Source: Streptacidiphilus carbonis
GTDB lineage: Bacteria > Actinomycetota > Actinomycetes > Streptomycetales > Streptomycetaceae
DNA: 64,000 nucleotides
Assembly: GCF_000787775.1 (NCBI RefSeq)
Contig: NZ_BBPM01000004.1
Location: forward strand, 180,052 to 244,051
Reading direction: 5' to 3'
Shown: positions 8,770 to 60,390 of the stretch, in pieces
Position numbering within the stretch: the stretch's first letter is position 1
Layout: each line of letters begins with the position of its first letter
Position numbers and translations under genes: made by a program
Notes under the pieces: generated by a model
What the model was told of the DNA's origin: nothing
The model's input: only the letters and a program-made list of their open reading frames with translations
Databases searched by the model: none

Positions 8770-10353
8770 GTGGCCACTCCCAGCACCATCACCCGCTCGA
8801 CACCGCCCCGGGCAAGCCGCGGCCAGCACCCGGGCATCGCCCTCACAGTCATCGCCGCCACGCAGCTGATGGTGATCCTCGACGCCACCATCGTGAACGT
8901 CGCGCTGCCCCACATCGAGACGGCACTGAAGCTCTCGACCACCAATCTGTCCTGGGTCGTCAACGCCTACACCCTGACCTTCGGCGGACTGCTGCTGCTC
9001 GGCGGCCGCATCGGCGACATCATGGGCCGCCGCCGCACCCTGATGGCCGGCGTCCTGCTGTTCAGCCTGGCCTCGCTGCTCGGCGGACTGGCCACCGCTC
9101 CCTGGATGCTGCTCTCCGCGCGAGCGCTGCAGGGCATGGGCGCAGCCGTCGCCTCGCCCACCGCGCTGGCCTTGATCGCGACCAACTTCGAGGAGGGACC
9201 GGCGCGCAACCGTGCCTTCGGGGTCTTCTCCGCAGTGGCCGGGGCCGGCGGCGCGATCGGTCTGCTGGCCGGCGGAATGCTGACGACCTGGCTCTCCTGG
9301 CGCTGGGTGCTCTTCGTGAACGTACCGATCGGTATCGCGATCGCCCTGCTCGCGCCCCTCTACGTCAACGACTCCGAGCGCCACCCCGGCCGCTTCGACC
9401 TGCCCGGCGCGCTGAGTTCCACCATCGGCATGGTCTCACTGGTCTACGGGTTCATCCGGGCCTCGCAGGACGGCTGGTCCGACCCCTGGACCCTGGGCGC
9501 CTTCGGCCTCGCCGTGGTGCTGCTGAGCGGATTCCTACTGATCGAGTCGCGCACCGCCGAGCCGATCACCCCGCTGCGGATGTTCCGCAACCGCAACCGC
9601 TCCGGCAGCTACGGGATCATGCTCTGCCTGGCGGCGGCGATGTTCAGCATCTTCTTCTTCGTCACCCTGTTCGTGCAGAACGTCCTGGGCTACAGCCCGC
9701 TGCGGGCGGGCCTCGCCTTCCTGCCGATCAGCTTCGCCATCGTCATCGCCGCGCAGATCGCCGCCCGGCTCCAGAGCACGCTGGGGGCCAAGCCGTTCTT
9801 CATCACCGGCTCCCTGCTGGTCACCGCCGGCATCGCCTGGTTCACCCAGATCAGCGTGGACAGCAACTATGTCAGCGGGGTGCTCGGCCCCACCCTGCTG
9901 TTCGGCTTCGGCATGGGCTCCATCTTCGTGCCCATGATGCTGACGGCCGTCGCCGGCGTCGCCCCCCGGGAGACCGGGTCCGCGACCGGACTGCTCAACG
10001 CCACCCAGCAGGTCGGCGGGTCGCTGGGCCTGTCCATCCTGGTCACGGTATTCGGCACGGCCAGCCGTAACGAGGGCAAGCACCAGGCCGCCCAGTTCCT
10101 GGCGCACGCCACCCCGCAGCAGCTCGCGGCGTTCAAACACAGCGGGCAACTGCCCAAGCACTACTCCGACCTGGTCCTGAGCCACAGCATCGCCACCGCC
10201 TTCGAGATGGGCCTGGTCTTCGCCGTGCTGGCCGTTCTCATCTCGGTGTTCGTCGTCAAGAGGCCACCGGCTCCGGGCACCCCGGGTGGACCGGGGCTGC
10301 AGGACGCTCCCCCGATCGGCCTGGCGAAGCAGCCGGACGAGGAGGCGGCCTGA
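8770..10353 (+). CDS. MFS drug exporter, DHA2 (EmrB/QacA) family
   Basis: A 527-aa inner-membrane proton-coupled exporter with about 14 predicted helices. The first helix carries QLMVILDATIVNVALPHIET (DHA2 motif D1), followed by LSWVVNAYTLTFGGLLLLGG and GGRIGDIMGRRRTLM (motif A). The GTG start follows GGGGGAATCC. Length and helix number match EmrB/QacA proteins. Expression is probably controlled by the divergent TetR. The substrate cannot be read from the sequence; antiseptics, dyes or a secondary metabolite are typical for the family. Confidence 0.94.
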   Translation: MATPSTITRSTPPRASRGQHPGIALTVIAATQLMVILDATIVNVALPHIETALKLSTTNLSWVVNAYTLTFGGLLLLGGRIGDIMGRRRTLMAGVLLFSLASLLGGLATAPWMLLSARALQGMGAAVASPTALALIATNFEEGPARNRAFGVFSAVAGAGGAIGLLAGGMLTTWLSWRWVLFVNVPIGIAIALLAPLYVNDSERHPGRFDLPGALSSTIGMVSLVYGFIRASQDGWSDPWTLGAFGLAVVLLSGFLLIESRTAEPITPLRMFRNRNRSGSYGIMLCLAAAMFSIFFFVTLFVQNVLGYSPLRAGLAFLPISFAIVIAAQIAARLQSTLGAKPFFITGSLLVTAGIAWFTQISVDSNYVSGVLGPTLLFGFGMGSIFVPMMLTAVAGVAPRETGSATGLLNATQQVGGSLGLSILVTVFGTASRNEGKHQAAQFLAHATPQQLAAFKHSGQLPKHYSDLVLSHSIATAFEMGLVFAVLAVLISVFVVKRPPAPGTPGGPGLQDAPPIGLAKQPDEEAA

Positions 10354-11713: not shown

Positions 11714-12346
11714 TCAGGCCCAGCGGTCGAAGGGCCGGTCGAGTGTATAGCGGTCGTCGGAGCCGAGCAGCAGGGTCCGGCACTCCCCGTTGTCGGGGTT
11801 GGAAAGCGCCTCGAACTCCTCCACCGACCAGTGGAACCAGCGCATGCAGAACAGACGCATCATCAGGCCGTGCGTCACCAGCAGCACATTCGGCGGATAG
11901 TCCGGGCGCTCGAAATTGCGGTGCAGGGTCTCGAAGAACGCGCCCACCCGATCGTAGACGTCGGCGCCCGACTCGCCCTGGGTGAAGCGGTAGAAGAAAT
12001 GCCCGTAGGCGTCGCGTGCCTTGCGCTGGCGGCGGATGTCCTCGGCGTCCTGGAGGTTTCCCCAGTCCTGTTCGCGCAGCCTCGGCTCCTCCATCACCCG
12101 GGTCCGGGTCGGATTCATCCCCAGCAGTGCGTAGGTCTGCCGATTGCGCAGATACGGGGAGACATAGGCCTGCACCGGCTCCATTCCGAACTGGGCCCGC
12201 AACTCCTCCCCCACCGCCCGCGACTGTTCCCGGCCCTTGGCGGTCAGTTCCAGCGCATGGTCGGGCACCCGCTCGTAGATCGTCTCATCGACGTTCCCCT
12301 GCGACTCCCCATGCCTGACCAGCACAATGCGCTGTGGACGTGCCAT
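11714..12346 (-). CDS. Histidine phosphatase family protein (phosphoglycerate mutase-like)
   Basis: A 210-aa branch-1 histidine phosphatase. The catalytic RHGE motif is at residues 11-14 (RIVLVRHGESQGN), and the second conserved histidine is in VLLVTHGLMMRLFCMRW. The intermediate arginine region reads AYVSPYLRNRQTYALLG. Substrate not predictable; the family covers sugar phosphatases, cofactor phosphatases and mutases. First gene of a two-gene operon with the YciI protein. Confidence 0.92.
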   Translation of the reverse strand: MARPQRIVLVRHGESQGNVDETIYERVPDHALELTAKGREQSRAVGEELRAQFGMEPVQAYVSPYLRNRQTYALLGMNPTRTRVMEEPRLREQDWGNLQDAEDIRRQRKARDAYGHFFYRFTQGESGADVYDRVGAFFETLHRNFERPDYPPNVLLVTHGLMMRLFCMRWFHWSVEEFEALSNPDNGECRTLLLGSDDRYTLDRPFDRWA

Positions 12347-12472
12347 ACCGCCACCCTAACCGGCGGCCCAGCGGCGGGCGCGGCGCCCACTGCCCACACC
12401 CACGCCCGCCCCACAAAGGCAAAGGTTCCCTTCCGGATAATCCGCCACAGATCGAATTGCTACCCTGATTCC

Positions 12473-12961
12473 ATGACCGCCATGACGCCCACGCGGACCG
12501 AGCCCGACCTGTCCTTTCTGCTGGACCACAGCAGCCACGTCCTGCGGACCCGCATGTCGGCGGCGCTCGCGGAGATCGGGCTGACCGCGCGGATGCACTG
12601 CGTGCTGATCCACGCCCTGGAGGAGGAGCGCACCCAGGCGCAGCTCGCCGAGATCGGCGACATGGACAAGACCACCATGGTGGTCACCGTGGACGCCCTG
12701 GAGGAGGCCGGACTGGCCGAGCGCCGCCCGTCCAGCCGGGACCGCCGGGCCCGGATCATCGCGGTGACCGAGGAAGGCGCCCGGGTCGCCGAGCAGAGCC
12801 AGCAGATCGTCGACGGCGTCCATCAGCGGGCCCTCGACACCCTTCCCGCAGCAGCCCGCGAGTCCCTGCTGAACGCGCTGAACCTGCTGGTCAGCGACCA
12901 TCTGGCGGAACCTGCCGCGGCACCGCGGTCGGCCCGGAGGGCGCGGCAGCGAGAGATGTAG
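12473..12961 (+). CDS. MarR family transcriptional regulator
   Basis: A 162-aa winged-helix regulator. The recognition helix and wing are clear (QAQLAEIGDMDKTTMVVTVD, then RRPSSRDRRARIIAVTEEGA). The ATG at 12473 is preceded by TACCCT at the distance expected of a leaderless -10 element. It lies 74 bp upstream of a DHA2 exporter on the same strand, with a dyad between them, so it probably represses the exporter and releases it on binding a small phenolic or drug ligand. Confidence 0.92.
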   Translation: MTAMTPTRTEPDLSFLLDHSSHVLRTRMSAALAEIGLTARMHCVLIHALEEERTQAQLAEIGDMDKTTMVVTVDALEEAGLAERRPSSRDRRARIIAVTEEGARVAEQSQQIVDGVHQRALDTLPAAARESLLNALNLLVSDHLAEPAAAPRSARRARQREM

Positions 12962-12969
12962 CACTGAAA

Positions 12970-12995
12970 CAGATCGTCTATAACAAAACTATCTG
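12970..12995. promoter_or_regulatory. Candidate MarR operator upstream of the second exporter
   Basis: Imperfect inverted repeat of two 10-bp arms, CAGATCGTCT and AAACTATCTG, with 8 of 10 positions complementary and a 6-bp AT-rich centre (ATAACA). It is the most AT-rich stretch nearby and lies where the exporter promoter is expected. Confidence 0.55.
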
Positions 12996-13000
12996 CTAGC

Positions 13001-13032
13001 GTCTCTCCTGTCGCCCAACGGACAGGAGAGAC
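13001..13032 (+). promoter_or_regulatory. Perfect hairpin enclosing the exporter ribosome binding site
   Basis: GTCTCTCCTGTC (13001-13012), an 8-nt loop (GCCCAACG), and GACAGGAGAGAC (13021-13032), ending 3 nt before the ATG at 13036. The right arm contains the Shine-Dalgarno GGAGAG. In RNA the 12-bp stem would hide the ribosome binding site; as DNA it is also a possible protein-binding dyad. Which applies depends on the transcription start. Confidence 0.7.
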
Positions 13033-13035
13033 GCC

Positions 13036-14538
13036 ATGCCTGCCACACCGACTGCCGCTGCACCGTCTGCTGCCATACCGCCTGCCCCATCCCGGAACCG
13101 CCCGCTCGCCCTGGCCGTCATCGCCACCGGCCTGCTCATGGTCGTGCTCGACGGCAGCATCGTGACCGTGGCGATGCCCGCCATCCAGAACGACCTCGGC
13201 TTCTCCGCCACCGGACTCAGCTGGGTCGTCAACGCCTATCTGATCGCGTTCGGCAGCCTGCTGCTGCTCGCCGGACGGCTCGGCGACCTGATCGGCCGCA
13301 AGCGGATGTTCCTCGCCGGAACCGCCGTCTTCACCGCGGCCTCGGTCCTCGCCGGGACGGCCACCACCCCGGCCCTGCTCATCGCAGCCCGCTTCCTCCA
13401 GGGCCTCGGCAGCGCCATGGCCTCCGCGGTCGGGCTGGGCATCCTGGTCACCCTCTTCACCGCAGCAGCGGAACGCTCCAGGGCCATCGCCGTGTTCAGC
13501 TTCACCGGCGCGGCCGGCGCCTCCATCGGCCAGGTCCTCGGCGGTGTGCTCACCGACGCCCTCGACTGGCACTGGATCTTCTTCATCAACCTGCCGATCG
13601 GACTCGCCACCTTGGCGGTCGCGGCCGCCGTCCTGCCCGACGACCGGGGCCTCGGCCTGCGGGCCGGCGCCGACGCCATCGGCGCCGTGCTGGTCACCGC
13701 CGGGCTGATGCTCGGGATCTACACCGTCGTCCAGGTCGACCGTTACGGCTGGACCTCGACCCGCACCCTCGGCCTCGGCGCACTGGCCGCCGCGCTGCTC
13801 GCCGCGTTCGCCGTACGGCAGACGACCGCGGCCAACCCGCTGGTACCGCTGCGGCTGTTCCGCTCGCGCACGGTGGTCGCCGCCAACCTGGTGCAGATGC
13901 TGATGGTGGCCGCCCTGTTCTCGTTCCAGGTACTGGTCGCCCTCTACCTGCAGCACGTACTCGGCTACAGCGCCACCGCGACCGGGCTGGCCATGCTGCC
14001 GGCCGCCGCCGTCATCGGCGCGGTGTCACTGGGCGTCTCCGCCCGCCTCAACGCACGCTTCGGCGAACGCGCCGTCCTGCTGAGCGGGCTCGTCCTGCTG
14101 ATGGGCGTGCTCGGGCTGCTCGCCCGGATCCCGGTGCACGCCCATTACGCCACCGACCTGCTCCCGGTGATGCTGCTGGCCGCGGGCTTCGGGCTGGCCC
14201 TGCCCGCGCTGACCACCCTGGGCATGTCCGGCGCGAAAAGCACCGACGCCGGACTCGCCTCCGGACTGTTCAACACCACCCAGCAGATCGGCATGGCCCT
14301 CGGCGTCGCCGTACTCACCACCCTCGCCGCTGGCCGCACCACCCGCCTGCTCGCCCACGGCAGCGCCCGGGCCGCCGCCCTCACCGGCGGCTACCACCTG
14401 GCCTTCACCGTCGGCGCCGGCCTCCTCCTCACCGCCTTCGCGGCGGCAGCACTGCTGCTCCGCTCCCCCGGCGCTGCCGTCCGGACCTACCGGCCCACCC
14501 GCTCGGCCGCCGCGGAGGAACCGGCCCGCGCGCGCTGA
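13036..14538 (+). CDS. MFS drug exporter, DHA2 family (second copy)
   Basis: A 500-aa, roughly 14-helix inner-membrane exporter with DHA2 landmarks: GLLMVVLDGSIVTVAMPAIQ, then LSWVVNAYLIAFGSLLLLAG and GRLGDLIGRKRMFLAG. It resembles the exporter at 8770 in plan but clearly differs in sequence, so the two are not a recent duplication. The ATG has GGAGAG at correct spacing, inside a hairpin. Control is probably by the MarR gene just upstream. Substrate unknown. Confidence 0.94.
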   Translation: MPATPTAAAPSAAIPPAPSRNRPLALAVIATGLLMVVLDGSIVTVAMPAIQNDLGFSATGLSWVVNAYLIAFGSLLLLAGRLGDLIGRKRMFLAGTAVFTAASVLAGTATTPALLIAARFLQGLGSAMASAVGLGILVTLFTAAAERSRAIAVFSFTGAAGASIGQVLGGVLTDALDWHWIFFINLPIGLATLAVAAAVLPDDRGLGLRAGADAIGAVLVTAGLMLGIYTVVQVDRYGWTSTRTLGLGALAAALLAAFAVRQTTAANPLVPLRLFRSRTVVAANLVQMLMVAALFSFQVLVALYLQHVLGYSATATGLAMLPAAAVIGAVSLGVSARLNARFGERAVLLSGLVLLMGVLGLLARIPVHAHYATDLLPVMLLAAGFGLALPALTTLGMSGAKSTDAGLASGLFNTTQQIGMALGVAVLTTLAAGRTTRLLAHGSARAAALTGGYHLAFTVGAGLLLTAFAAAALLLRSPGAAVRTYRPTRSAAAEEPARAR

Positions 14539-14570: not shown

Positions 14571-14605
14571 CGCGGCCCCCGAAGCACCTGGCTTCGGGGG
14601 CCGCG
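14571..14605. terminator. Bidirectional intrinsic-type terminator between exporter and nrdJ
   Basis: A perfect 15-bp stem, CGCGGCCCCCGAAGC with GCTTCGGGGGCCGCG, and a 5-nt loop, between the convergent exporter and nrdJ genes. No U-run follows, as is usual in streptomycetes. Confidence 0.85.
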
Positions 14606-60312: not shown

Positions 60313-60336
60313 AAAGGGGCGCGCAGCACACAGCAG

Positions 60337-60371
60337 TGCGCCGGTGACTCCGGGTGGGAGTCACCGGCGCA
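60337..60371. terminator. Terminator of clgR
   Basis: TGCGCCGGTGACTC (60337-60350) and GAGTCACCGGCGCA (60358-60371) give a perfect 14-bp stem with a 7-nt loop, 19 bp after the clgR stop. Confidence 0.9.
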
Positions 60372-60390
60372 CAGGTGCCGGGGGTCGTCG

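Follow-up and report, generated by a model that had tools for sequence, protein, structure and literature searches.

Hairpins that mask the ribosome binding site (RBS) of late and homing-endonuclease genes are described for phage T4 and its relatives (I-TevI, I-TevII, I-TevIII, segB, mobE of Aeh1, soc and e), where they form in long RNAs initiated upstream, and where a promoter nearer to the gene starts transcription too far downstream for the hairpin to arise (PMC2988022). The locus analysed here, a MarR-family regulator gene (marR) followed by an exporter gene, would share this principle, with the RBS hidden only in upstream-initiated transcripts. It differs in that the T4 examples are phage genes timed early or late, whereas here we deal with a chromosomal actinobacterial repressor–exporter pair and a presumably ligand-controlled promoter, and in that some of the T4 cases have been experimentally tested, whereas the present one is known from sequence, through about 200 loci and a contrast in gene order. 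In IS10/Tn10, transcripts reading in from outside fold so as to conceal the transposase start, and RNA from the element's own promoter lacks the fold; there, however, a mobile element guards itself against random neighbours, whereas here the neighbour, marR, is fixed. Read-through from lacI into lacZ likewise lets the operator region fold over the lacZ RBS. The lac arrangement resembles ours in its upstream repressor gene and in a palindrome that spans the start site close to the RBS, but the lac palindrome is itself the repressor operator, whereas in our case the presumed MarR dyad is a distinct element located upstream.

Among MarR systems, sav_4189–sav_4190 of Streptomyces avermitilis also places a MarR-family regulator and an MFS efflux gene in tandem, but its genes, 22 nt apart, are reported to be cotranscribed, its operator, TTGCCYKHRSCAA, is another one, and the accessible part of that report describes no guard hairpin (PMC6036246). 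SCO3205 and SAV4189 were considered as matching MarR systems and rejected, since their operators differ. SCO4121/SCO4122 is another Streptomyces MarR-system pair.

In the 64,000-nucleotide stretch of DNA that was analysed (the window), marR occupies positions 12473–12961 of the forward strand. Its product contains a MarR winged-helix domain, with both PF12802 and PF01047 exceeding the gathering score (MarR_2, 2.3e-10), and it has orthologues that are up to 92% identical. The exporter gene (13036–14538) follows immediately on the same strand and encodes a DHA2 (EmrB/QacA-type) MFS protein, scoring 236.6 bits against TIGR00711 (4.9e-70), above the cut-off of 230.2. Another DHA2-like MFS exporter ORF is found on the same strand about 3 kb upstream (8770–10353). 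A presumed −10 element of marR, TACCCT (12461–12466), is located only 6 nt before the ATG, for which reason the marR mRNA looks leaderless; in most of the orthologues aligned a TAnnnT element is found 6–7 nt before the start codon, similar to the leaderless exporters described below. Preceding this element there is a palindrome, CGGATAATCCG (12434–12444), whose GATAATC core recurs upstream of the aligned orthologues and which suggests autoregulation of marR by a presumed MarR site.

Between the two genes, the arms GTCTCTCCTGTC (13001–13012) and GACAGGAGAGAC (13021–13032) are perfect complements flanking the 8-nt loop GCCCAACG (13013–13020). An earlier note on this DNA had described these arms and this loop correctly, but the stem, which it took to be 12 bp, is perfect over 14 bp (12999–13012 with 13021–13034; −29.2 kcal/mol). 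It had also placed the right arm on the Shine–Dalgarno (SD) region, as we find: the SD AGGAG lies at 13024–13028, and the 13021–13032 segment stops 3 nt short of the exporter ATG at 13036. In the 8.46-Mb genome there is no second copy of the exact element. Three perfect inverted repeats of at least 14 bp, the exporter stem among them, are present in the real window, compared with one, with a loop of 3–15 nt, in 20 windows of 64 kb simulated from a first-order Markov model (about 0.05 per window). A perfect 15-bp hairpin right after the exporter stop (14571–14605) is terminator-like, without a clear T-run, and the longest hairpin in the window, with a perfect 16-bp stem, a 5-nt loop and the left arm GTGCGCCGGTGACTCC, is found at 60336–60372. 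An Rfam search returned no family for the exporter hairpin, its sole match being sub-threshold and located elsewhere, and promoter and terminator consensus scans gave nothing useful for this element. The GC-rich stem is followed by CATGCC instead of a T-run, and a scan of 12300–13200 detected no U-tract terminator between marR and the exporter gene, which is why we propose that marR transcription enters the latter.

In order to compare this arrangement with its relatives, marR orthologues were gathered from genome contigs and from the genus and family, and a promoter/operator pattern, GTCTNYWACRRAACYWTCYGYTANSGT, was searched in the class, the family and one large genus, and the matching loci were retrieved. 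The related loci, about 200 from several actinobacterial orders, include members of Streptomyces, Kitasatospora, Streptosporangium, Nonomuraea, Planotetraspora, Microbispora, Actinomadura and Saccharothrix. Deduplication left 206 loci with promoter and exporter start codon; 191 of them, having an adjacent marR and a leader of sufficient length, were scored (154 tandem and 37 divergent); the weak-looking tandem stems of L093 and L306 are start-codon misassignments. The alignment points to an exporter promoter with a −35 element, TCGTCT (12974–12979), in which T-x-G-T-C-T is highly conserved, followed after 17 nt by the −10 element TAGCGT (12997–13002), for which the consensus is TACGGT after TGC, with T, A and the final GT near-invariant. 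The latter fits the Streptomyces −10 consensus TANNNT well (PMC4895711). The dyad noticed previously at 12970–12995 is real, if imperfect, overlaps the −35 element and the spacer, and is likely the MarR operator, as had been suggested.

The position of the transcription start can be approached through seven loci from Actinomadura, Asanoa and Micromonospora (L039, L045, L049, L060, L065, L070 and L073), in which the start codon, ATG or GTG, lies exactly 7 nt past the −10 element. These loci look leaderless (in S. coelicolor about a fifth of the primary starts yield leaderless mRNAs; PMC4895711), and their start codons would place the start at the eighth base after the −10 element, which here is G13010, inside the left arm. 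The leaderless calls at +1 in L099, L209 and L263 are probably TTG artefacts. In the Asanoa loci L065 and L070 the ATG sits at the loop of a perfect inverted repeat of 8 bp, TACGGTCC/GGACCGTA, and in L060 the right-arm segment GAACCAGGGAAAGAC occurs as a tandem duplicate just inside the exporter coding start.

With a start near 13010, the exporter's own mRNA would lack the stem, which makes an RNA switch in that mRNA unlikely, and the stem could form only in RNA reading in from marR. The earlier note had the stem regulating the exporter's own transcript and needing to be opened, which disagrees with this start, and it opposed a start before 13001 (an RNA device) to one after 13012 (a DNA operator), a dichotomy that misses a start within the left arm. 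In contrast, its expectation that the RNA hairpin would hide the RBS is borne out by the predicted folding of read-through RNA, where 14 bp cover the SD, as in the T4-type hairpins, and where the SD has an unpaired probability of 0.0002. RNA from 13010 retains three left-arm bases, GUC, and its SD is predicted to be open, with an unpaired probability of 0.46. Over the 154 tandem loci the predicted medians are 0.11 for read-through RNA and 0.41 for own-start RNA. Moreover, in 163 tandem loci the left arm begins 29 nt or more beyond the marR stop, so that a terminating marR ribosome probably does not reach and melt it.

These observations lead us to regard the hairpin as a probable cis-acting guard against exporter translation from marR read-through RNA. 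Transcripts from the marR promoter would continue into the exporter gene, and in this RNA the 14-bp stem would mask the SD, so that the exporter is not made. The exporter promoter is presumably repressed by MarR at 12970–12995 and released by a drug-like ligand, whereupon RNA would start near 13010 with its SD open. The pump would thus be made only from RNAs begun at its own regulated promoter.

The pairing is conserved among the related loci, as the comparison of orthologues proposed in the earlier note reveals, and in agreement with its opinion that the hairpin is unlikely to be neutral. At the core positions of 153 tandem loci, C/U exchanges in the left arm opposite G, which keep a G-U pair, account for 52 parsimony changes over three positions, versus 11 for U/C exchanges opposite A, which break the pair. 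In counts, 85 of 431 are G-U-preserving versus 11 of 351 pair-breaking (Fisher p ~1e-13, with loci treated as unrelated), an asymmetry that could derive in part from a pyrimidine or promoter preference around the start. In addition, position 0 alternates between C-G, U-A and U-G, and position 1 between U-A and G-C, as compensatory pairs, and loop length varies between 5 and 55 nt among the relatives. The G-U-preserving changes and the variable loops argue that the stem behaves as RNA and not as a DNA operator.

Gene order provides a further comparison, as a divergent marR allows no read-through from marR into the exporter gene. The median stem energy is −19.6 kcal/mol in the 154 tandem loci versus −12.6 kcal/mol in the 37 divergent ones, and the median z against shuffled left arms is −3.7 versus −1.2, with a fraction of 0.89 versus 0.38 below −2. 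In all ten clades that are entirely divergent, defined on a FastTree topology of the MarR and exporter proteins, the stem falls short of the strength it has in the closest tandem relatives (sign p = 0.002); restricting the test to well-supported branches leaves five independent contrasts, nearly all of which agree in direction but which are too few for p < 0.05. The promoter columns and the first dyad are similarly conserved in tandem and divergent loci, whereas the left-arm columns lose conservation in the divergent ones. A clean pair is formed by L286 (divergent), which has no stem, and its neighbour L107 (tandem), which has a strong one. Nevertheless, gene order does not fully account for stem strength, since some divergent loci (L057, L182 and a CCAGTC/GACTGG clade) retain a fair stem. 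In the latter clade (L125, L177, L309 and L337) the stem is kept through the swapped pair CCAGTC/GACTGG, which marR read-through cannot account for.

The main rival is that the hairpin acts as a noncanonical transcription terminator or 3′-end stabiliser of the marR mRNA and overlaps the exporter SD by coincidence. Such an element would likewise be kept only with a tandem marR, and U-rich motifs accompany a minority of the 3′ ends mapped in Streptomyces (S. lividans, 194 of 1,640; PMC6742748). However, the left arm holds its position relative to the exporter start even where the gap after the marR stop extends to 241–352 nt (L096 and L255), and in these long gaps there would be room for a terminator ahead of the promoter; loops of up to 55 nt, the covering of the SD by the right arm and the lack of a U-tract also speak against this explanation, which we judge unlikely. 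We find it improbable that the palindrome is a second DNA operator, to which MarR or some other dimeric protein binds, as the earlier note had offered with its second protein site: the palindrome does span the start site, a common operator position, but an arm spacing of 5–55 nt does not resemble the fixed half-site spacing of a dimer site, many of the changes preserve G-U pairs and not DNA symmetry, and the arms decay in divergent loci that retain the promoter and the first dyad. The lac operator is similarly placed at the start site.

It is very improbable, in our view, that the exporter's leader itself holds a switch, be it a riboswitch, a thermometer or an attenuator, with a start before 12999 and a signal that opens the stem. 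The very stable stem over the SD would suit such a device, but the promoter and the leaderless relatives put the start within the left arm, no Rfam family matched, neither an aptamer-like element nor a constant loop length was seen, and the stem should persist in either orientation of marR, yet it weakens when marR is divergent. There is hardly any likelihood that the stem reflects chance or composition, by which a pyrimidine-rich start region would complement a purine-rich SD. Both regions are constrained and some complementarity survives in the divergent loci, but the tandem stems exceed those of shuffled left arms by the margin given above, their pairs covary, and the stem weakens where marR is divergent although the promoter is the same. 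A guard against read-through from marR is the reading that we prefer, with the gene order serving as its natural test.

Although the principle is known from phage T4, our survey of mostly open-access literature found nothing specific on read-through guards at chromosomal bacterial genes, and no report for a chromosomal MarR–exporter locus. If the guard reading is true, this would be a clear and widely conserved chromosomal case of a device best known in that phage. It also carries the caution that a hairpin over an RBS need not act as a switch within the mRNA of that gene. In relatives of the leaderless type, a start codon that is internal and lacks an SD should likewise be used poorly when the RNA reads through, so that the two solutions may serve one end. 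We therefore advance, tentatively, that Actinobacteria gate exporter translation by the mRNA start in two interchangeable ways, either by a guard hairpin that hides the SD in read-through RNA or by a leaderless start codon that is efficient only at the 5′ end, and that such guards may be a common form of insulation in GC-rich genomes with few U-tract terminators. Under the guard reading, a tandem repressor–exporter pair without a conventional terminator would stay tightly regulated, with the pump mRNA being read only when it starts at its own promoter.
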